Shown piece after piece: positions 971 to 16,273 of a stretch of DNA of 56,283 bases. The notes under the pieces were generated by a model. That model was given only the letters and a program-made list of their open reading frames with translations. It was not told the origin of the DNA and made no database searches. A program made the translations under genes and the position numbers. The DNA is from a virus, in the IMG/VR virus record IMGVR_UViG_3300036985_002190, positions 1 through 56,283 of that record; one strand, given 5' to 3'. Positions within the stretch are counted from its first letter, which is position 1, and each line of letters opens with the position of its first letter.

Positions 971-1189
971 TTAATCATTGCTAAGTGTTACTGAACCTTC
1001 GAAGTCTTTGAATGAGTCAGCGCACCAGTCTTCACGATACACTCCAATTGAATATGCGCCATCCTTTAGTCTATTAAGAACAGTGCCAGATCTTTTGGTT
1101 TCAAATAATACAATATGTCCAGTCGACTCCATTATTTTTGGATAAGACCTACATCTGTTATTGTCGTTTTTATTTACTACTGATTTCAT
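971..1189 (-). CDS. Small hypothetical protein (72 aa)
   Basis: A 72-residue protein with a strand-rich middle (HIVLFETKRSGTVLNR) and a C-terminal segment SIGVYREDWCADSFKDFEGS, which resembles a small beta-sheet fold but is not a family I can name. It is the first gene of the packed leftward set 1-1189 and lies just downstream of the structured-RNA region at 1231-1551, so it may share a transcript with those elements. Confidence 0.6.
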   Translation of the reverse strand: MKSVVNKNDNNRCRSYPKIMESTGHIVLFETKRSGTVLNRLKDGAYSIGVYREDWCADSFKDFEGSVTLSND

Positions 1190-1230
1190 GTGTAATTATT
1201 TAAAAGGTTAATATTCTCGCGCGCGCGTAC

Positions 1231-1298
1231 ATTATTATATAGTAGCACTGGCCGATCTTTAGTTTAAGCCTAATGGCACCAATGTTACTATAAATTAT
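1231..1298. ncRNA. RNA-like fold A bounded by AT-rich inverted repeat
   Basis: Arms ATTATATAGTA (1234-1244) and TACTATAAATTAT (1286-1298) pair across about 40 bases. The enclosed part holds further small complementary segments (CTT and AAG around TAGTTT, and CACTGGCC facing GGCACC). It lies between the genes 971-1189 and 1558-1698, where nothing is coded. Either strand could be the RNA; minus is more likely from the neighbouring genes. A (CG)5 run lies just before it at 1219-1228. Confidence 0.35.
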
Positions 1299-1340
1299 CC
1301 TTAGACGAACTTGATGTATGCGAATTTATGAAGCATACAA

Positions 1341-1400
1341 CTAGGGAGTCTTATAAGAGTATCATTAATTGTCATTGCAATACAGGACTATATTCCCTAG
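1341..1400. ncRNA. RNA-like fold, CTAGGGA stem
   Basis: A 7-base perfect stem CTAGGGA (1341-1347) / TCCCTAG (1394-1400), extendable by G-T and T-A, encloses about 46 bases that contain the self-complementary TCTTATAAGA and an ATTG/CAAT hairpin. It lies directly next to fold B and belongs to the same non-coding stretch 1190-1557. Confidence 0.35.
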
Positions 1401-1409
1401 ATATAGATA

Positions 1410-1551
1410 TAATATAATAATGTGATTTCGAGTAGTTTCGCTTCCGCCGAGTCTTGGTAAGATTCAGAGCTCTCTCTACAACGATTTAATTCGGTAATGC
1501 CGACTCTTACTCTTCCACAATTGCAATTGTAGTGCTCACATTATTATATTA
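1410..1551. ncRNA. RNA-like fold B, 16-bp perfect terminal stem
   Basis: A perfect 16-base inverted repeat (1410-1425 and 1536-1551; core AATAATGTGA / TCACATTATT) encloses 110 bases. Inside are several further complementary pairs: TCGG/CCGA around TAATG (1491-1503 area), the palindromes AGAGCTCT and CAATTGCAATTG, and GTAAGA facing TCTTAC. A repeat of this length and perfection inside 142 bases is unlikely by chance. No reading frame of note is present. The shape recalls a stable RNA with a long processing stem, but it matches no class I know. Confidence 0.5.
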
Positions 1552-1557
1552 ATGTTG

Positions 1558-1698
1558 TTAATTCAACGCTCGATTCTTCCGATGACCTGGCAATCCAGCT
1601 TTAGCATATGGCGTAACTTTAGCTACCTTAGTGCTACTGAATGACTCTGACTGTACACCAGCCATAATACGCTTGATTTTACGTGATTGTGATTGCAT
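1558..1698 (-). CDS. Basic 46-residue protein, unknown function
   Basis: A 46-residue gene read leftward from ATG 1698 to TAA 1558. The product starts MQSQSRKIKRIMAG and ends GLPGHRKNRALN, is rich in Lys/Arg and Ser, and could bind nucleic acid, but no family is recognised. It is isolated between the structured non-coding stretches 1190-1557 and 1699-2092. Codon use looks like that of neighbouring genes. Accepted because the frame is clean and the protein looks ordinary in composition; its small size keeps the confidence moderate. Confidence 0.5.
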   Translation of the reverse strand: MQSQSRKIKRIMAGVQSESFSSTKVAKVTPYAKAGLPGHRKNRALN

Positions 1699-1747
1699 GA
1701 TATAAATCTTTAGTTGTTAATAAATAATGTCTGTAAGGGCTTGGTAT

Positions 1748-1819
1748 TATAATAATACAGGCTGAATTTGCCTCAAACAGCAACTGCATTTAACTCATGC
1801 GAGCACCTGTAATATTATA
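1748..1819. ncRNA. RNA-like fold C, three inner hairpins
   Basis: Arms TATAATAATACAGG (1748-1761) and CCTGTAATATTATA (1806-1819) pair with a single mismatch in 14. Inside are three short hairpins in a row: TTTG/CAAA (1767-1777), CAG/CTG (1778-1786) and GCAT/ATGC (1786-1800), a multi-arm layout. It lacks the conserved tRNA D- and T-loop bases, so it is not called a tRNA. Confidence 0.45.
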
Positions 1820-1849
1820 TCTATATACAGCACCTTGGTATATATAGAT
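1819..1849. repeat. 9-bp hairpin between folds C and D
   Basis: ATCTATATA (1819-1827) pairs with TATATAGAT (1841-1849) around a 13-base loop. It abuts the 3' arm of fold C, and alternative pairing with that arm is possible. Confidence 0.4.
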
Positions 1850-1870
1850 TGTATTGTTGCATTACAACAC

Positions 1871-1969
1871 ATAATAATTGCGCTCAATCTACACCATTTG
1901 TGTATGATACTCTCAACTGAGTATAGTAAGATTGTTCTGACACTTGGCTAATTAAGGCGCAATTATTAT
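1871..1969. ncRNA. RNA-like fold D, 13-bp perfect stem, cloverleaf-like
   Basis: A perfect 13-base inverted repeat ATAATAATTGCGC (1871-1883) / GCGCAATTATTAT (1957-1969) encloses 73 bases. A second stem CAATCT (1885-1890) / AGATTG (1929-1934) lies inside and itself encloses two hairpins, ACAC/GTGT (1891-1903) and ATACTC/GAGTAT (1907-1924). This nested, branched arrangement is what a compact structured RNA looks like. The tRNA T-loop motif is absent on both strands. It sits in the non-coding stretch 1699-2092. Confidence 0.5.
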
Positions 1970-2037
1970 AAGTATTTTATATTACGACATAAGACAGGCT
2001 AAGTCAGGCTTGCGCCTTCCAAAGCCTCTCTAAGTCT

Positions 2038-2085
2038 ATAGAGCCCTCAAGGTGATCAGCATTACCTGTTATTCAAGGGCTCTAT
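2038..2085 (-). terminator. Stem-loop after the 2093-2356 gene
   Basis: A perfect 10-base stem ATAGAGCCCT (2038-2047) / AGGGCTCTAT (2076-2085) with an inner AGGT/ACCT stem (2050-2053 / 2064-2067). Read leftward it begins 8 bases after the stop of the 2093-2356 gene, the place for a terminator or 3' stabilising hairpin, but no U-tract follows on that strand. It could instead be one more member of the fold array 1231-1969. Confidence 0.45.
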
Positions 2086-2092
2086 TTAATTC

Positions 2093-2356
2093 TTAGCAAG
2101 GGATTGCCCTTACATATTTAACGTCAATGTTTTCGCCATTACGGCTGAATGAATACTCAACATCTTCAAAGCGAAGGTTGCGATCCATTTCGGTGCCAAC
2201 GATGGCTGCGTCAGGTGTTGTTTCAGACTGTATAACGAACTCTCTGCCTTGGCATATACCAAAGATAGCGTCCATTACGATCTCTTGACAACGGATGTTA
2301 GAACCGCCTGTGCGAGTCTTAGAAGCTGCTACTTGTAATACTTTAAACTTGGTCAT
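2093..2356 (-). CDS. Hypothetical protein (87 aa)
   Basis: An 87-residue protein beginning MTKFKVLQVAASKTRTGGSN and ending in a strand-rich segment (VEYSFSRNGENIDVKYVRAIPC). No catalytic motif is visible. It is the first leftward gene next to the switch region; base composition is richer in G+C than the surrounding non-coding sequence, consistent with coding. Function unknown. Confidence 0.65.
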   Translation of the reverse strand: MTKFKVLQVAASKTRTGGSNIRCQEIVMDAIFGICQGREFVIQSETTPDAAIVGTEMDRNLRFEDVEYSFSRNGENIDVKYVRAIPC

Positions 2357-2395
2357 GATTGTATGTTTTAGATTGTTAGAGTTGTATTGATGACG

Positions 2396-2454
2396 TGATG
2401 ATATTTCTAGGTTATTACATCCATGGATTTAGAAGACCTAAAGCAATATCATCA
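2396..2454. ncRNA. RNA-like fold in switch region
   Basis: A perfect 10-base stem TGATGATATT (2396-2405) / AATATCATCA (2445-2454) encloses an inner TAGGT/ACCTA stem (2408-2412 / 2436-2440) and the palindrome ATCCATGGAT (2419-2428). It lies 40 bases upstream of the leftward gene 2093-2356 and could be its 5' leader structure or a separate RNA. Confidence 0.4.
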
Positions 2455-2479
2455 ACGCCAAGAGTTAGTAAAGGTGAAA

Positions 2480-2562
2480 GATCGCCTTGATTGCCGATGA
2501 AAAGAGAGATTAACAACGAATGCCGGGGCTGATGACCCAAGTTGAGATGAAGTCGGGCGATC
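2480..2562. ncRNA. RNA-like fold, GATCGCC stem
   Basis: A perfect 7-base stem GATCGCC (2480-2486) / GGCGATC (2556-2562) with an inner GGG/CCC hairpin around 2526-2538. It lies in the non-coding switch region 2357-3122, next to the fold at 2396-2454. It could also be part of a replication origin; nothing here decides between these. Confidence 0.35.
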
Positions 2563-2690
2563 AGTGCCTATTATCCTATGATCTCATTGATATTCAATAT
2601 TTTGAAAATTATTTTTTATTCTAAAATTTTTTCAACTAAATTTTTAGTCGTGTGACTATGTTTATAGTCAATTAGCCATACTAAGATAGA

Positions 2691-2722
2691 TTTGGTAGTG
2701 TCAAAATAAAGTTGTATATTTG
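2691..2722 (+). promoter_or_regulatory. Bacteroidota-type promoter for rightward genes
   Basis: TTTG (2691-2694) followed after 20 bases by TATATTTG (2715-2722) matches the Bacteroidota -33/-7 consensus (TTTG and TAnnTTTG). Expected start of transcription is about 2729. A 7-base stem TGACTAT/ATAGTCA (2653-2670) lies just upstream and could be an operator or insulator. This is the first rightward promoter after the strand switch. Confidence 0.7.
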
Positions 2723-2728
2723 TGATTG

Positions 2729-3110
2729 CTGATTGCTCTACTGAACGCCTTGCAAGCATATACAAAAGTTCAGTAATTCGCTCCGAAAGTTAAATCATAT
2801 AGGAGCTAGACGTCGGGTTGTTAACCATAAATAATGGGGAGTTGTCCCCGGCAGGGCAAAGATGAGTTGATTGGGGATTATTTAGAATTGATCAGGTGTT
2901 TGGGGCCATGAGTGATTGGTAAGGATTAACTCAAACCTAGTCTGATTTGTCAGATAGCAGGGATTAAATGATCGTTCTTGATTAGAATCTAAATTTCTCG
3001 GATTAATCAAACAGACTTAACCGACTGCTTGTGAGCGACATAGTTGGTAAAGTTAAAACGAAGGAGGGGTCGCATATGAGATTGTTGTGTTTAATTGAAT
3101 CGTTAATTTA
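2729..3110 (+). ncRNA. Structured leader or large non-coding RNA
   Basis: About 380 bases without a convincing reading frame lie between the promoter at 2691-2722 and the nuclease gene at 3123. Clear hairpins follow each other: TACTGAAC/GTTCAGTA (2739-2746 / 2768-2775), GCTCC/GGAGC (2780-2784 / 2802-2806), GGTT/AACC (2816-2826), GGGGA/TCCCC with a 4-base loop (2836-2849), TCTGA/TCAGA (2941-2954), and GCGAC/GTCGC (3034-3072 area). The purine-rich G content is unlike the AT-rich intergenic sequence elsewhere. It is either a stable phage RNA or a long 5' leader controlling the nuclease gene. No known class is recognised. Confidence 0.5.
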
Positions 3111-3111
3111 A
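3076..3111 (+). CDS. Possible 11-codon leader peptide with Shine-Dalgarno
   Basis: ATG at 3076 is preceded by AAGGAGG (3061-3067), which is unusual in this window where ribosome sites are AT-rich. It opens an 11-residue frame (MRLLCLIESLI) ending at 3111, 11 bases before the nuclease start. It may be a leader peptide, or the purine stretch may simply pair within the RNA fold upstream. Confidence 0.2.
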   Translation: MRLLCLIESLI

Positions 3112-3122
3112 ATTATATATTT

Positions 3123-8164: not shown

Positions 8165-10413
8165 CAAACAAATATCAAACAAAGATAAATGAGTCTCTAA
8201 AGAATTCTTTAAGTAAGGAGGTTTTTTCAGACTTGCTCGAATTTGTGGATTCCGTTGCGTTTATACGATGGCTAATTTCTCCGGAAGAAATACGTGGGTT
8301 TGCTAAAGATAGAGAACGCGATGAGTCGGGTAAAATTAAGGTTGATATAACCAAGCCACACATTCTTGAGAATATGGATTTCTTCAGGGAGAGAGCTTTG
8401 TATCACGAGAAGCATGGGAGATATACTCATTTACGGCCAAATCCTAATCCTAAATCAGAATACACAGCTTTTTGGAAGGAAGAGTTGCGTAGGTGGAGGG
8501 ATGGATTAGTCAGACCCAGTGATGGAGAGTGGATTCCTGGTGGATATTACTTCTATTTAAACTATAGCCCAATCTGGCTTGTTAAAGAGGTCGTCTCTGT
8601 TAAAGGTAAAAAATCTAAGGGGCTAAGAACTAGGGCATTCCCTAAAATATGGCATGGGGATTATTTATTTTTCCATTATTTAGATCAAGCTAGAGAGAGT
8701 GGAGCACATGCTAAAATATTAAAATGTCGTGGAGTTGGGTTTAGCTTCAAGTTGGCATCATTGTCTCCACGAAACATGTATATAGAACCTGGACTTCCAA
8801 ATTTTCACTTGGCGTCAGATAAGACATTTCTAGATGGAGATAAGGGCGTTTTCGGTAAAGTTCTTGATGTATTAGACTGGATAGCTGACAGTACTCCATT
8901 ACCTAAAATGAGGCTAATAAACTCTATTAGGTCAAGAGAAATACAGCTTGGGTTCCAGGATGACTACGGAATTAAAAAAGGTCTTAAATCGTCTGTATAT
9001 GGAATATCATTAAAAGATAACCCAGATAAAGCTCGTGGTATTAGGGGCCCATTAATTCACTATGAGGAAGATGGATTATTCCCAAATCTTGAACATGCAT
9101 GGAATGTTAATAGAGATGCCGTTGAACAAGGTGAGGTTACCCATGGACAAATGGTTTGCGGTGGCACAGGAGGAACAGAAGGAGCTGATTTTGAGGGATC
9201 TGAAAAACTATTTAGAAATCCATTAGCATATAATATACATGGGATACCTAATGTATTTGATAAAAACTCTAATGGAGAGACTGTATGCGGATTCTTCTGG
9301 GGCGCATACATGAATAGAGAGAAGTGCTATGATTTTGCTAGTGGAGAATCAGATGTTGTGAAAGCTTTAATAGAAGTATTAACTGATAGATATATAATTA
9401 AGTACAACTCTGCTGATCCACAGGTAATAACACAGCGAATGGCTGAGAAATGTGTAACTCCGTCTGAAGCCGTAATGAGAACTACTGGTACAATATTTCC
9501 AGTATCAGATCTTAAAGACTATAGAGACTCTATTAAAATTCAAGGGACTAGATTTTTTGATACACACTACGTTGGAAATTTAGTATTGAATCAACACAAT
9601 ATAGAGTGGAAGCCTGATGCAGATTTATATCCAATAAGAAAGTTTCCACTTGGCACAGATAGGCCGGAAGGGGCTTTAGAGATATATGAAATGCCTAAAT
9701 ATGGTGTTGATGGAAAGATAGATCCACATCGCTATATATCCGGAATCGACCCTGTTGATGATGATGAAGCTAAAACTACATCGCTAACATCAATATTTAT
9801 ATTTGATTTGTATACAGATCGTATAGTGGCCGAATATACCGGTAGGACAAAGTTCGCCAATGATTTCTATGAAATGTGCCGTAGGTTGCTTATGTTTTAT
9901 AATGCTAAGGCTAACTATGAAAATAACAAGAAGGGTATATTTAATTACTTTGACCAGAAGCGCTGCCTAAATCTATTGTGTGAAACTCCACAAATCCTTA
10001 GGGATATGGAGTATGTTAAGGGTTCTGGCTTTGGAAATAAAAGTCTCGGCACAAATGCTACCCTACCAATTAATACTTGGGGCAGAAGACTTCAAAGAGA
10101 TTATTTAATGAGCAAAGCATTCATGCAGGATATTGACGCTGATGGAAATCAAGTTGGAGAAAAACTTAATATGCACACAGTCAGATCAATGGGTTATATT
10201 GACGAGCTGATTGCTTGGAACTCCGATATAAATGCAGATAGAATTTCAGCAATGGGAATGTTAATGATATACCGAGAGGATAGGTTAAAATATATTCAGC
10301 AACGTGACAATAAAACAAACGATGACGATTACGATGAATATATAGATAAGAATTTTCAGAATGCATACCAAGGGCAAAACAGCTATGGAGTATCTGTATC
10401 GTCAGATTGGTAA
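8134..10413 (+). CDS. terL: Terminase large subunit (TerL)
   Basis: A 759-residue packaging motor. ATPase part: a noncanonical P-loop region CRGVGFSFK (residues 198-206, no GK[ST]), Walker B-like LIHYEED (about 307-313) and the coupling motif GGTGGT (343-348). Nuclease part: an RNase H-like core beginning GIDPVDDDE with Asp539 as first metal ligand, and a C-terminal acidic helix near residue 690. The N-terminal FVDSVAFIRWLISPE pattern and the length fit crAss-like terminases. It pumps genomic DNA into the prohead through the portal encoded next. ATG 8134 lies inside the end of the endonuclease gene; no upstream in-frame start exists. Confidence 0.92.
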   Translation: MCESVGDYILTNKYQTKINESLKNSLSKEVFSDLLEFVDSVAFIRWLISPEEIRGFAKDRERDESGKIKVDITKPHILENMDFFRERALYHEKHGRYTHLRPNPNPKSEYTAFWKEELRRWRDGLVRPSDGEWIPGGYYFYLNYSPIWLVKEVVSVKGKKSKGLRTRAFPKIWHGDYLFFHYLDQARESGAHAKILKCRGVGFSFKLASLSPRNMYIEPGLPNFHLASDKTFLDGDKGVFGKVLDVLDWIADSTPLPKMRLINSIRSREIQLGFQDDYGIKKGLKSSVYGISLKDNPDKARGIRGPLIHYEEDGLFPNLEHAWNVNRDAVEQGEVTHGQMVCGGTGGTEGADFEGSEKLFRNPLAYNIHGIPNVFDKNSNGETVCGFFWGAYMNREKCYDFASGESDVVKALIEVLTDRYIIKYNSADPQVITQRMAEKCVTPSEAVMRTTGTIFPVSDLKDYRDSIKIQGTRFFDTHYVGNLVLNQHNIEWKPDADLYPIRKFPLGTDRPEGALEIYEMPKYGVDGKIDPHRYISGIDPVDDDEAKTTSLTSIFIFDLYTDRIVAEYTGRTKFANDFYEMCRRLLMFYNAKANYENNKKGIFNYFDQKRCLNLLCETPQILRDMEYVKGSGFGNKSLGTNATLPINTWGRRLQRDYLMSKAFMQDIDADGNQVGEKLNMHTVRSMGYIDELIAWNSDINADRISAMGMLMIYREDRLKYIQQRDNKTNDDDYDEYIDKNFQNAYQGQNSYGVSVSSDW

Positions 10414-10468: not shown

Positions 10469-12847
10469 ATGTCAACACAATCATCTGGATTTCCCAGACA
10501 AAAATTACCATCTTCAAAGAAAAATCTAGAGTGGAGAAAGTCTCATTTAGATTGGGCGGACAAGAATAGTTATCTTTTTAATAATAATGTACGCAGATCA
10601 TTGCGTGGCAAGAAGATTAATTATGACCTGTTTAACGGCATATTGCATGAAGAAGACATGAAGAAGACTCTTAACCCGATGAATAAACGGGTTGGTCTAA
10701 TACCGAGTCAAATACAGCACTTCCCAATTATTAACAATCCATTAAACGTATTAATAGGTGAGGAATCTCGTAGAAAACATGATTACATTGTCAAGGTGTG
10801 TAATGATGATGCTATATCTGCAATTGAAATTGATAAGGTTAAGGACGCTCAAGAGAGGATACTTCAGATTATCACAACTGAATATCCAGACGAGAAAGAG
10901 GCCGAGAAAGAAATAGAAAGGCTACAGCAATATTTTAACTATAATTGGCAGGATCTTCGCGAGAAGAGAGCTAATTGGTTGTTAAAACATTATATCAAGG
11001 AGTTAGACTTTAACTTCAAAATGAACCAAGGATTTAAAGATGTCCTTATCGCAGCTGAAGAAATATACCAATTCGATATATGTAGCGGCGAGCCTACCAT
11101 GGAGTGTCTTAATCCAAGAAAAGTATATACGCTTAGAAGTGGTTATTCATCAAAAATAGAAGATGCTGACATTATTATTCTTGACGATTATTGGTCGCCA
11201 GCAAGAATTATTGATAATTATTATGAAGACCTTAAAGATAAAGATGTTGAATATATTGAATCTATATCAAACCAAAATCTCGTCCAGACTGATGAGATGG
11301 GTAATATGGATGAACGGAGTGCTTTCTTATATTCTCCCCTTATAACAGAAGATAATCTAGAAAACAATACAGTCGACTCATTCGTGTGGATGGGTAATAA
11401 CTTTGCGGGACTTCCAAATTCATCATATGTAGATAATATGGGTAACGTCAGAGTACTGCGTGTATATTGGAAATCTAAGCGTAAAATCAAATCAATTAAA
11501 TCATATGATCCACAGACTGGCGAAGAGATGTATTCATTTAAAGATGAGACTTACAAGGTTGATCAGTTTGCTGGAGAAGAGTCGGAAGACCTCTGGGTTA
11601 ATGAAATCTGGGAAGGCATAAAGATTGGCAAAGAAGTGTATATTAATATGCGCCCCAAAAAAGTGCAATACATGCGTCTTAATAACCCAGCACAATGTCA
11701 CGCTGGAATTATAGGTCAAATATATAATACAAATCAGGCAAAAGCCGTATCTCTATTGGATAGGATGAAGCCTTATCAATATCTGTTTGATGCAGTTAAA
11801 GATAGGTTGAATAAGACTATCGCAAAGAACTATGGCAAAATTTTAGAACTCGATAAAGCTAGAATGCCAGCTGGTTGGGATTATCAGAAGTGGTTGTATT
11901 TTATTGAACAGGATAATATTTCGGTAGTTGATAGTTTTAAGGAGGGAACCAAAGGCGCTGCCACTGGTAAGATGGCTGGCAATTTTAATACTTCCGGAAG
12001 ACCATTAGACTTAGAGGTTGGTAATTCAATTCAATTATATATTAACCTACTTGAGTATCTCAAGGGTGAGATGTTTGAGATTTCTGGTGTGTCTAAGCAG
12101 CGTCAGGGTCAGGTTGACAATAGAGAAACTGTAGGTGGAGTAGAACGTGCCATTTCAAGTAGTTCTCATAGCACTGAAGAGCTTTTTATGATACATGACA
12201 ATGTACGCAAGCGTGCGTTAATTGCGTTGCTAGAAACGGCTAAAATTGCCCTAAAAGGACGCAATAAGAAATTGCAATATATTACCGACGATAAAATCAT
12301 GACAATGCTTGATGTCGATGGAGATGAATTTGCTGAAATGGATTATGATATCATGGTTGATAATGATATGGGCGACATGGAGCTTAAGCAAAAATTAGAA
12401 CAGTTGGCTCATGCTGGTTTACAAAACCAAATGCTATCATTTTCTACAGTGATGAAAATATTCACAGACTCATCATTAACTTCTGTAATGCGCAGAATTG
12501 AGCAAGATGAGAATTCCATGAAACAAAGCAAAGCCCAAGAAGGCGAAGCTCAAAATCAAGCAATGCAAGCTCAGGTTCAATCTAATGAAAAGATGAAACA
12601 ACTTGAAATGCAGTTACAAGATTTAATCAGTCAGCGTGAGAATGAAACCAAACTTCAGATTGCACTTATTGGCAAAGAGGGCGATTACACCGAAGAAGAC
12701 GCCTCAGATATGGAGAAGATTAAACTACAGCGAGATAAGCTTGAGCAGGATTATAAGCTGAAAATGAAGGACTTAGAGGAAAAATCGAGGCATAATATTG
12801 CCCAAGAATCAATAACTAGAAATAAACCGCAAACATCTAAAAAATAA
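10469..12847 (+). CDS. Portal protein
   Basis: A 792-residue protein in the position (directly after TerL) and of the size of crAss-like portals. It begins with a basic N-terminus and the FPIINNPLNVLIGEESRR segment, continues with the wing/stem part containing LFDAVKDRLNKTIAKNYGKIL, the 'EMFEISGVSKQRQGQV' motif typical of portals of this group (about residue 535-550), and ends in a long Gln/Glu/Lys-rich coiled coil (about 680-780). Twelve copies are expected to form the channel at one capsid vertex, binding TerL during packaging and the tail later. Confidence 0.9.
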   Translation: MSTQSSGFPRQKLPSSKKNLEWRKSHLDWADKNSYLFNNNVRRSLRGKKINYDLFNGILHEEDMKKTLNPMNKRVGLIPSQIQHFPIINNPLNVLIGEESRRKHDYIVKVCNDDAISAIEIDKVKDAQERILQIITTEYPDEKEAEKEIERLQQYFNYNWQDLREKRANWLLKHYIKELDFNFKMNQGFKDVLIAAEEIYQFDICSGEPTMECLNPRKVYTLRSGYSSKIEDADIIILDDYWSPARIIDNYYEDLKDKDVEYIESISNQNLVQTDEMGNMDERSAFLYSPLITEDNLENNTVDSFVWMGNNFAGLPNSSYVDNMGNVRVLRVYWKSKRKIKSIKSYDPQTGEEMYSFKDETYKVDQFAGEESEDLWVNEIWEGIKIGKEVYINMRPKKVQYMRLNNPAQCHAGIIGQIYNTNQAKAVSLLDRMKPYQYLFDAVKDRLNKTIAKNYGKILELDKARMPAGWDYQKWLYFIEQDNISVVDSFKEGTKGAATGKMAGNFNTSGRPLDLEVGNSIQLYINLLEYLKGEMFEISGVSKQRQGQVDNRETVGGVERAISSSSHSTEELFMIHDNVRKRALIALLETAKIALKGRNKKLQYITDDKIMTMLDVDGDEFAEMDYDIMVDNDMGDMELKQKLEQLAHAGLQNQMLSFSTVMKIFTDSSLTSVMRRIEQDENSMKQSKAQEGEAQNQAMQAQVQSNEKMKQLEMQLQDLISQRENETKLQIALIGKEGDYTEEDASDMEKIKLQRDKLEQDYKLKMKDLEEKSRHNIAQESITRNKPQTSKK

Positions 12848-12852
12848 ATACT

Positions 12853-13821
12853 ATGGCAAGTAACGAATCAAATTGGTTAAAACGCATCTGGGAGCAAACT
12901 AATGGAGCTTCTGGATCATCTTCTATATTTACTAATAATACTCAGACCACACAGGTTGTAGATGCAACTGGCAATGCAGTATTGACAAATGGAGATCAAC
13001 AGACAAAAATAGTAGATGGACTTGGTAATATTTTGTTGCCTTCTGGGACTCCAGCTAAATTAGCCTATGAATTGACTAGGCCAGCCAATATCACTGGATA
13101 TACAATTGGTGATGCAATTAATTCAAGCATACTGCAAAAGCAAAAGGAAACAATCAGTTTTACAGGAACTGGCGGCACAGCAAATGTAACCTTGGCTGGT
13201 GGGTTAACCAAGTTGGCTACATTTAGAGACGATCTAGTAACAACAGCTATTGACTTTGAATCAGCACATGGAGCAGCTTATGCAGCAGTAGGAATTACGC
13301 TAACTAGAAATATGGGAGATATTATCCTTGAAGCTACTGTAGCTGGAGTTCCCTTTACTGCACCAGTTGTGGTTAATGTAACTACCAATTTAGGTGGAAC
13401 AGTTGCTCATACTACCGCAAATGGTACTCCAACAGCAATAACTTTAACAAATGCTTCAATTGCCAATAATGGTGGTGGATTTGCATTCTTATTGAAAGTT
13501 GAATCTAATATCACTACTTTAGCTGGAGCAACGCTAAGATATTGGTTTTATAATACAGTTCCTACGTCATTAGTAGGCGATAATATCCCTTTCGTTAACT
13601 CATACGTTAATGCAAGTAAGAGATGCTTTTATGTTGATGTTACTTTTGATGCTTTATTAGCAGGGTCAGATACTGTTATTGGATCAGTAGAGTTAAGTAA
13701 GGAATATGTAACTGCATTGGCTGATACGAGTATGTATGCACTGATTCAAACCTTATCAGCATTCACCCCAACATCAGGCGGTAAAATCTATTCTGCATTA
13801 TCAGTATTAAAACTAGCATAA
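12853..13821 (+). CDS. Strand-rich virion or fibre protein (322 aa)
   Basis: A 322-residue protein, rich in Thr, Ala, Gly and Val with long alternating patterns, as in decoration proteins and fibres. The N-terminus carries short repeats of the type Q-VVDATGNAVLTNGDQQTKIVDGLGN-, often seen at the head-binding end of Bacteroidota phage fibres. It lies between portal and a large fibre gene. In crAss001-like phages the gene after portal encodes a head-fibre protein, which is a reasonable guess here, but no direct homology is visible to me. Confidence 0.5.
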   Translation: MASNESNWLKRIWEQTNGASGSSSIFTNNTQTTQVVDATGNAVLTNGDQQTKIVDGLGNILLPSGTPAKLAYELTRPANITGYTIGDAINSSILQKQKETISFTGTGGTANVTLAGGLTKLATFRDDLVTTAIDFESAHGAAYAAVGITLTRNMGDIILEATVAGVPFTAPVVVNVTTNLGGTVAHTTANGTPTAITLTNASIANNGGGFAFLLKVESNITTLAGATLRYWFYNTVPTSLVGDNIPFVNSYVNASKRCFYVDVTFDALLAGSDTVIGSVELSKEYVTALADTSMYALIQTLSAFTPTSGGKIYSALSVLKLA

Positions 13822-13822
13822 T

Positions 13823-16273
13823 ATGAGTTTCGTACCAATAGTAGTAAATATTATAAATCAGAAGTATAGGCAGATACGTGCTTATATTGCTAGAGTTGCA
13901 AGAGATGGTGGACTGATTCGAAATCAATCCATCTCTCAGCAATACTACCAACTTATCAAGCAGAACAACCTACCAACCCCTGTTTTCTCTTGGTTTGGTG
14001 AAGCAGGTACTAAAGAACGTGTTAGTGGTATATACAGCTTTGCTACTAAGATATTTAGTACGCATACACCTGTGGCTAGATATGGGCCTGAATTGGTTGT
14101 TAATGGTGGGTTTGATACTGATAGTGGATGGACTAAAAACACTTGGAGTATTGGAAGTGGGGTTGCTAGTATTAATACGGTTGGAATAGATACAATTTAC
14201 CAACCAATTTTAACTATTGGCAAAACCTACAAACTAACATATACCTTAGTATCATGCACTTCAGGTGGAGTTCGTGGTAGAATTGGTACGTTAGCCGATG
14301 GTACTTTGGGGCAAAATACGCCGGGAGTATATTCATTTACAAGAATAGCAGACTCTAGTATACTAGGCGTTATAACGGGTTCGAGTGGATTTAATGGTTC
14401 AATCGACAACATCTCAGTAGTAGAAGTCCTAAACTCTCTTGATGGTTCACCTACAGATGCAGTTCAAACAACATCTACCTCTCAACCTCCTATAGGTGGC
14501 TACATAGCACCTAATGAAAAGATACATATAAAGAATCCTAATGGTGATAGTAGGTATATGACTCATCCTACTATTAGTTTTAGTGCTGGGGATGCTTGGA
14601 GTGTGACGACTGTGTTGAATTGGAATGGGAATAGTGATACATATTCATCAGTTTTTGGAAGTACCATTACGACTACAAAAATATTAATAAGAAGTGTAAA
14701 CAATAATAGAATAAGAATATTTGGGAATACAACAGATGTAAGTGGTACATCTGATTATTTAGGTAGATTTATTGGAAAGAGAATTGTAATATCTTTAGTT
14801 TACAAAGCACCAAATGTAGGTTTCTATATTAACGACTTATTTATACAATCTCTTACGATAAATGATGCTTTTACTTTTAATGCAATTTTAAGAGGTGATA
14901 ATAGTGAAAGTTATCCATATAACGGTTCTCTTTTCGCCCATATCATCACCCCTGCCGCACTAACACCTACACAAGTAGCAATACAAGCAAACTTTCTTAG
15001 TCAACAATATCCTGAGATACCTTCTGTTACAATAGGTAGTCAACCTTGGGCTACAAGTAATTGTGAAATGGTTTCTACACCGATAGGTAGTTTGATTGCT
15101 GAAGTGCAAAGTAATGCTAATGTTGAGAAGATAACTAATCATACATTCACAGATGCAATAGGATGGGCAGTTACAGGTGAAACAATAATAAGTGGAGGAA
15201 CTGCAAGAGTTTTATCATCAACAGGGGTGTTAAGTAATTTGCAAGGTATTTCAGGAGTTACATTAAAACTTGGGCAGTGGTATAAGATTATTTATGACGT
15301 AATTTCAACTAATGGAGTGAATTTAACAAATAATATTGGTGATTTTAGCTATAACACTTCGACTACGGGAACAGGTAGAACACAATACTTTAAATGTGTA
15401 GAAACAACGCTAAATTTTAAACGAGTTGGTATTACTGATGTAACATTAGATAATATATACTTAGAAGAAATAGGCTGGTCATCCTCTCAAGAACTTTACG
15501 ATGCCATCTACGCTCAAACTGCTGGTACAGTAGAAGAAAAAACTTACGCTGCTGTTAAGGCTGCTGCAATGTGGTGTTATTACAATAATGACTTGGCTCT
15601 AGGCAGTGTTTATGGTAAATTAATTAACTGGTACTCGGTTTACCTTTTGCATAAAGACCTTGTTTATTATGCAATGACAGGTAGTAATGTAGTAGCATCA
15701 GCTTATAATGCTAGTAAAGTTTACATTGTTCGTATCAATGCAAGAACATCTGGAGCAGGTACTGTAAGTATCAATGCAACAGGACGTGGTTATTCTAATG
15801 TAATTACACTGTCAGGAACAGATAAGCTTTATGAGATATATGTAAATGGTGCAGATGGTGTAATACCTACTTTGACTTATACAGGAACAGGTTCTATGAC
15901 TGTTACAGAGTTTTCAATGTATGAAGATTTATGGAAATGGAGAGTACCTGCTGAAACTGATTTTAATAATCTTTCTACTAATTTAGGTGGTACTAGTGTT
16001 GCAGGTGGTAAGATGAAGAAAGATGGATTGTTGTACTGGAATACCCCCAATACAGGTGCTGATAATAGTAGTGGGTTTAGTATGCTTCCTTCTGGTTCGA
16101 GATTAGATGATGGAACTTTTGCTGGAATAAACAGTATTGGTAACTGTAACTCTATTTCTGCGACAGATGCATCTAATGCCTATATTATGGGTTTATTTAA
16201 TACTGATACAACTATTGCAATTGTAACAACTTCTAAAAAAAGAGGTAGGGGATTAAGACTAATAAAATCATAA
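13823..16273 (+). CDS. Receptor-binding fibre with LamG-like and FISUMP-like domains
   Basis: An 816-residue multi-domain fibre. After a short N-terminal attachment segment come a carbohydrate-binding-like jelly roll (from about residue 90, NGGFDTDSGW), a LamG/concanavalin-like domain (about 230-400, with WSVTTVLNWNG and a YNGSLFAHIIT end), a second CBM-like jelly roll (about 434-550), and a C-terminal FISUMP-like (Fib_succ_major) domain from about 587: YGKLINWYSV, then WRVPAETDFNNLSTNLGG, then LPSGSRLDDGTFAGI, ending RGLRLIKS. A stretch of about 100 residues is inserted between the first two FISUMP motifs. FISUMP has a C-type-lectin-like fold, fitting a binding tip. Codon use seems more GGT/AGT-rich than in neighbours, hinting at acquisition. 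Confidence 0.7.
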   Translation: MSFVPIVVNIINQKYRQIRAYIARVARDGGLIRNQSISQQYYQLIKQNNLPTPVFSWFGEAGTKERVSGIYSFATKIFSTHTPVARYGPELVVNGGFDTDSGWTKNTWSIGSGVASINTVGIDTIYQPILTIGKTYKLTYTLVSCTSGGVRGRIGTLADGTLGQNTPGVYSFTRIADSSILGVITGSSGFNGSIDNISVVEVLNSLDGSPTDAVQTTSTSQPPIGGYIAPNEKIHIKNPNGDSRYMTHPTISFSAGDAWSVTTVLNWNGNSDTYSSVFGSTITTTKILIRSVNNNRIRIFGNTTDVSGTSDYLGRFIGKRIVISLVYKAPNVGFYINDLFIQSLTINDAFTFNAILRGDNSESYPYNGSLFAHIITPAALTPTQVAIQANFLSQQYPEIPSVTIGSQPWATSNCEMVSTPIGSLIAEVQSNANVEKITNHTFTDAIGWAVTGETIISGGTARVLSSTGVLSNLQGISGVTLKLGQWYKIIYDVISTNGVNLTNNIGDFSYNTSTTGTGRTQYFKCVETTLNFKRVGITDVTLDNIYLEEIGWSSSQELYDAIYAQTAGTVEEKTYAAVKAAAMWCYYNNDLALGSVYGKLINWYSVYLLHKDLVYYAMTGSNVVASAYNASKVYIVRINARTSGAGTVSINATGRGYSNVITLSGTDKLYEIYVNGADGVIPTLTYTGTGSMTVTEFSMYEDLWKWRVPAETDFNNLSTNLGGTSVAGGKMKKDGLLYWNTPNTGADNSSGFSMLPSGSRLDDGTFAGINSIGNCNSISATDASNAYIMGLFNTDTTIAIVTTSKKRGRGLRLIKS

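Follow-up and report, generated by a model that had tools for sequence, protein, structure and literature searches.

Phage RNAs that act on host defences have so far mostly been found as single genes, such as Racrs and tRNAs. Racrs are small non-coding phage RNAs that act in trans against variable host defence (PMC10651486), and among phage tRNAs are some that provide rescue from retrons and other defences (PMC11555353). Two further systems are close to the locus described here. The GOLLD and ROOL RNAs are structured phage RNAs whose role is unknown, often located near tRNA islands (PMC12286853), and the CBASS-sensed cabRNAs are unrelated hairpin-rich RNAs that different phages make from the same genomic location (PMC10686824).

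The locus is an array of folds that resembles each of these systems in part. Like Racrs, its units would be small non-coding phage RNAs, for which we infer a trans action on defence, but Racrs are solitary CRISPR-repeat mimics whereas the array units are 70–180 nt long, closed by stems and arrayed (PMC10651486). Like phage tRNA arrays, it brings small structured RNAs together in a cluster that varies in content, but the units lack tRNA features (PMC11555353). GOLLD and ROOL are single large conserved families, and the array units match neither of them nor any Rfam family (PMC12286853). The cabRNAs originate from terminase coding sequence, whereas the folds of the array are intergenic and sit in slots between fixed blocks (PMC10686824). 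A coarse search of the literature found no report of a comparable locus.

The window, by which we mean the whole stretch of 56,283 nucleotides that was analysed, is on sequence grounds a 56-kb piece of a crAss-like phage genome, kept as a virus record. The product of 8134–10413 matches phrog_6681 (terminase large subunit) and is 43% identical to its counterparts in Bacteroides crAss-like phages over 97% of its length; a terminase search of GTDB genomes returned two distant contigs and no useful host name. In three relatives the match to the terminase gene is broken by about 0.9–1.1 kb (L002 1308–2206, L017 7545–8533 and L036 10975–12065), as by an intron, an intein or a homing gene. Small genes at 48–2356 of the window are oriented leftward, and genes run rightward from 3123 on. 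The folds lie in two gaps between the small leftward genes, gap 1 (1190–1562) and gap 2 (1698–2092), with the following features:

971–1189, minus strand: gene for a 72-aa protein (phrog_34898), downstream of the array; 44–60% identity in relatives
1231–1298, minus strand: unit A, in slot 4; stem 1233–1251/1279–1297, 79% over 19 bp
1283–1405, minus strand: fixed block between slots 3 and 4; 83–96% identity in L003 and L004, weak folding
1410–1551, minus strand: unit B, in slot 3; closing stem 1410–1425/1536–1551, 16 bp, perfect
1558–1698, minus strand: 46-aa open reading frame, MQSQSRKIKRIM...NRALN, separating gap 1 from gap 2
1748–1819, minus strand: unit C, in slot 2; stem 1748–1761/1806–1819, 93% over 14 bp
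1819–1849, minus strand: fixed hairpin within the block 1804–1850
1853–1870, minus strand: small hairpin inside variable slot 1, between unit D and the fixed hairpin
1871–1969, minus strand: unit D, in slot 1; stem 1871–1883/1957–1969, 13 bp, perfect; z −5.5
1980–2036, minus strand: variable hairpin, first part of slot 1; z −4.7
2038–2085, minus strand: fixed hairpin with a 13-bp stem, directly 3′ of the stop codon of the 87-aa gene; z −4.9
2093–2356, minus strand: gene for an 87-aa protein, upstream of the array; 80–94% identity in four relatives

The 87-aa protein matched no known family, and distant homologs of the 72-aa protein occur in phages of Vibrio and Flavobacterium (INPHARED). The 46-aa reading frame has no database relatives; it is kept intact in L001, frameshifted in L003 (9478–9613) and missing from L004. 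A CGCGCGCGCG tract at 1216–1231 marks the end of the array and is kept as AATGTACGCGCGCG in L001, L003 and L004.

An earlier note on this DNA, made from the sequence alone, had described four main units with stems of up to 16 perfect base pairs and two smaller units. Its coordinates and both perfect stems (B and D) are correct and the four main units stand, but its inventory overlooked the hairpins at 2038–2085 and 1980–2036, and the smaller unit at about 1300–1405 folds weakly (z −1.4). The folds clearly exceed chance. All perfect inverted repeats in the window of at least 12 bp with arms 20–200 apart fall in gaps 1 and 2, with three observed against 0.018 expected, a number reached in none of 500 dinucleotide shuffles. 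When the whole window was scanned on both strands in 110-nt tiles (1022 tiles), minus-strand 1981–2090 ranked first and minus-strand 1871–1980 third in folding excess. The whole of gap 2 has a folding energy of −117 kcal/mol (z −6.3) on the minus and −104 kcal/mol (z −3.8) on the plus strand. Gap 1 folds less strongly, with z −2.0 on the minus and −0.7 on the plus strand; the minus-strand z-scores of units A, B and C are −2.5, −3.7 and −2.7. The branched layout drawn in the note for unit D is obtained on the plus strand, but on the minus strand, which carries the flanking genes, the unit is an interrupted rod with one branch. Across phages, the mean z of 20 segments is −2.03 in the sense and −1.48 in the antisense direction, with sense values below −2 in only 10 of the 20, and L001 slots 2 and 3, L003 slot 1 and L004 slot 1 fold no better than shuffles. 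The flanking genes are all leftward, and this is the sense in which the folding is on average better.

Four relatives (L001–L004), all contigs of one metagenome (sample 3300020045), were found by searching with the 87-aa protein. Their arrays align with that of the window in islands, with near-identical fixed blocks alternating with four slots, and there are several features of this arrangement. First, the contents of the slots differ. No two of the five phages have the same content in slot 1, which in the window consists of unit D and hairpins; all four relatives have unrelated inserts at the position of unit D, and none of these phages has a match to the hairpin at 1980–2036. Slot 2 (unit C) is the same in L001 and L002, has a 69% relative in L004, and differs in each of L003 and the window; slot 3 (unit B) has three contents and is absent from L004; and slot 4 (unit A) has a different content in each of four phages. 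Second, for most phages BLAST gives no match between the slot interiors, though the fixed blocks reach 100% identity. The 64–65 nt block at 2036–2100 is 97–98% identical in all four relatives, and the block at 1804–1850 is 98–100% identical in L002 and L004 and falls, in L001 and L003, within alignments that are longer but less similar, with its central 25 nt (the hairpin core) identical in all five phages. Third, the closing stems in slots 2 and 4 are largely fixed flank, so that the holder is constant while the inside changes: the outer stem of unit C is fixed flank around an interior that differs in L003 and partly in L001, L002 and L004, and the stem of unit A comes from fixed flanks around a 23-nt core (1253–1275) that matches no relative. 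A coding reading of the slots was considered and rejected, because the short reading frames that cross them are in differing frames between phages and every base of the fixed hairpin is conserved.

Array homologs in IMG/VR, sought with fixed-block and insert patterns and with the flanking proteins, are confined to sample 3300020045, and INPHARED gave nothing for the array by DNA or protein; neither database gave homologous inserts outside this one metagenome. A covariance model of the L001 slot-1 insert, run over 504 kb, retrieved only its own copies. Rfam 15 had no match in the window at gathering thresholds, and at a relaxed threshold (window 1190–3122 and L003 7531–9990) there was nothing convincing for the units. 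The units are indeed unrelated to one another in sequence, as had been noted, and their stems differ; rather than the single RNA family that had been suggested, they form a set in which the slots are fixed and the units exchangeable. Constant flanks around folds that are mostly swapped suggest small phage RNAs that can be exchanged as a set.

Pairing is retained as the contents change. With arms cut only where flank conservation ends, and not chosen from folds, arms from the same phage pair better than arms swapped between phages (111 of 20,000 permutations with 40-nt arms, 88 of 20,000 with 50 nt and 634 of 20,000 with 30 nt); a variant in which arms were picked from folds gave 5 of 20,000 and is biased by that choice. 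In slot 3, the window and L003 have a common 15-bp stem around unrelated interiors, with exactly two differences, both compensatory (A-U to U-A and U-A to A-U). These stems were compared by anchoring on the shared 3′ flank, as a MAFFT alignment misplaces the gap and hides the compensatory changes. The slot-1 insert of L001 is present twice (9896–9970 and 10330–10404), the second copy lying upstream of the 87-aa gene, and of its 24 pairs three are changed on both sides, two are changed to G-U and none is broken, i.e. all five varying pairs are kept; the shuffle control (57 of 500) is weak, there being two sequences only. The compensatory-change evidence for the units is thus positive but small, coming from few sequences and one sample. 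A lack of conserved pairing in relatives was one of the two observations that, according to the earlier note, would refute its reading as structured non-coding phage RNAs, and the arm pairing, the slot-3 stem and the L001 paralog pairs all speak in favour of the RNA reading.

A further structured RNA lies close by on the opposite strand:

Window about 2733–2984, plus strand: conserved two-domain leader RNA, right after a rightward promoter-like element
L001 9193–9406, L002 7780–8009 and L004 8250–8476, minus strand: the leader RNA in relatives
L016 3768–3961 and L028 838–1059, plus strand, and also L046 and L047: the leader RNA in further phages

The promoter-like element (window about 2690–2722, plus strand) consists of a TATATTTG box with TTTGG upstream, and the box is common to six phages (the window, L001, L003, L004 and L016, and slightly altered in L002). 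Among five leader sequences, 18 pairs are changed on both sides and 90.8% of cells are paired, a score favoured by derivation of the structure from the same five-sequence alignment; none of 500 shuffles reaches it, and slid controls have 37–48% of cells paired. The covariance model also matches three phages outside the training set, scoring 122 bits in L028, 42 bits in the L019 record and 37 bits in L020; in the latter two the 3′ domain is missing or shortened. When these are added, 93.7% of cells pair. There is no convincing match in Rfam and none in INPHARED. The leader may represent a new family of RNAs in crAss-like phages, for which it is a well-supported candidate in its own right, perhaps with an antitermination or regulatory role.

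L001 carries a tRNA (15050–15129, plus strand) followed by a permuted tmRNA (15137–15419, plus strand; RF04321, 70 bits; ARAGORN tag GKTINLFREVAIAA). Relatives also have tRNAs, either close to the divergent promoter region or within the leftward region (L028 1576–1805, plus strand; L004 7689–7763 and L016 329–403, minus strand) that are absent from the window, and the leftward region of L001 has more stem-closed or tRNA-like stretches that look non-coding (12108–12212 and 13430–13860). Beyond the tRNA and permuted tmRNA, the L001 leftward module goes on to genes for an AAA_24 ATPase and for a protein with a DUF3799 nuclease match just below cutoff, and these two genes suggest an early DNA-metabolism module, with the timing presumed. 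RNA genes are thus a normal occurrence in this phage group, which has tRNAs and a permuted tmRNA as well as the covarying leader RNA.

The folds, the slot architecture, the matching arms and the compensatory changes are direct observations, and we regard it as likely that the gaps are structured, organised in slots and exchanged with pairing kept. More tentatively, we propose that they constitute a leftward-transcribed array of structured RNA cassettes that recombine and probably act in trans on host functions. Phages would exchange slot interiors, most simply through recombination in the conserved flanks, and a leftward transcript would carry the gaps as non-coding cassettes. These may be released as small stable RNAs, the closing stems being suited to an RNase III-like cut, and would then target, in trans, host factors that evolve fast, for example nucleases, tRNA-like partners or RNA-sensing defences; this would account for content being replaced with pairing retained. 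No leftward Bacteroidota promoter (TAnnTTTG) is recognisable beside the array, and no unit is tied to any defence system.

It is possible, though doubtful, that the folds are instead cis-acting intercistronic elements of a leftward operon, whose hairpins control how the mRNA of the small genes is cleaved by RNases, how stable it is or how it is translated, and whose contents drift since any stable fold suffices. The folds sit exactly between co-oriented small genes, half of the inserts have no special fold, and the hairpin directly behind the 87-aa gene is conserved in all five phages; lacking a U-tract, it is not a typical terminator, and that candidate role was rejected. However, the branched structure in the slots reaches 180 nt, which exceeds what a stabiliser needs, and L001 reuses its slot-1 insert, multi-branch fold included, upstream of another gene, which suggests that the RNA itself matters.

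We consider it unlikely that the repeats act at the level of DNA, as AT-rich palindromes that template switching or recombination generates and keeps exact, which would make the gaps hot spots for short insertions with no RNA function. Quasi-palindrome correction by template switching produces compensatory double changes, so the slot-3 differences could arise in this way too; the stems are AT-rich and exact, and gene content varies between relatives throughout the leftward region. Against this, the L001 paralog retains inner pairs as well as the outer palindrome, the transcribed strand folds better, and the 25-nt core of the fixed hairpin is identical in all phages.

Very improbable for the window units is derivation from degenerate tRNA genes of a phage tRNA array, the decoys suggested in the earlier note. 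Relatives do carry tRNAs and a permuted tmRNA, L001 has a tRNA-like match at 13745–13842 (22.8 bits, below the gathering threshold of 29), and L003 slot 2 folds cloverleaf-like with a T-arm-like hairpin, but ARAGORN calls no tRNAs in the window, RF00005 is unmatched even at E 5 in window 1190–3122 and L003 7531–9990, and the slot units vary in size and topology. Non-autonomous MITE-like mobile elements, which would account for terminal inverted repeats, variable presence and the duplicated L001 unit, are hardly credible given terminal repeats that are unlike from unit to unit, slots at fixed positions, no target-site duplications seen by eye, and two insert patterns that were found nowhere else when scanned in IMG/VR.

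The RNA cassette reading has a more far-reaching form, which is speculative and rather unlikely: an 'RNA cassette array' in which fixed stem-loop holders in an operon have unrelated structured RNAs swapped into them as an anti-defence arsenal. If true, such a quickly renewable, trans-acting RNA arsenal would be the RNA counterpart of variable anti-defence gene islands, and a locus built for the exchange of structured RNAs would be a new route of diversification in the widespread crAss-like group. The array is a concrete place to seek RNA-level conflict between crAss-like phages and their hosts.
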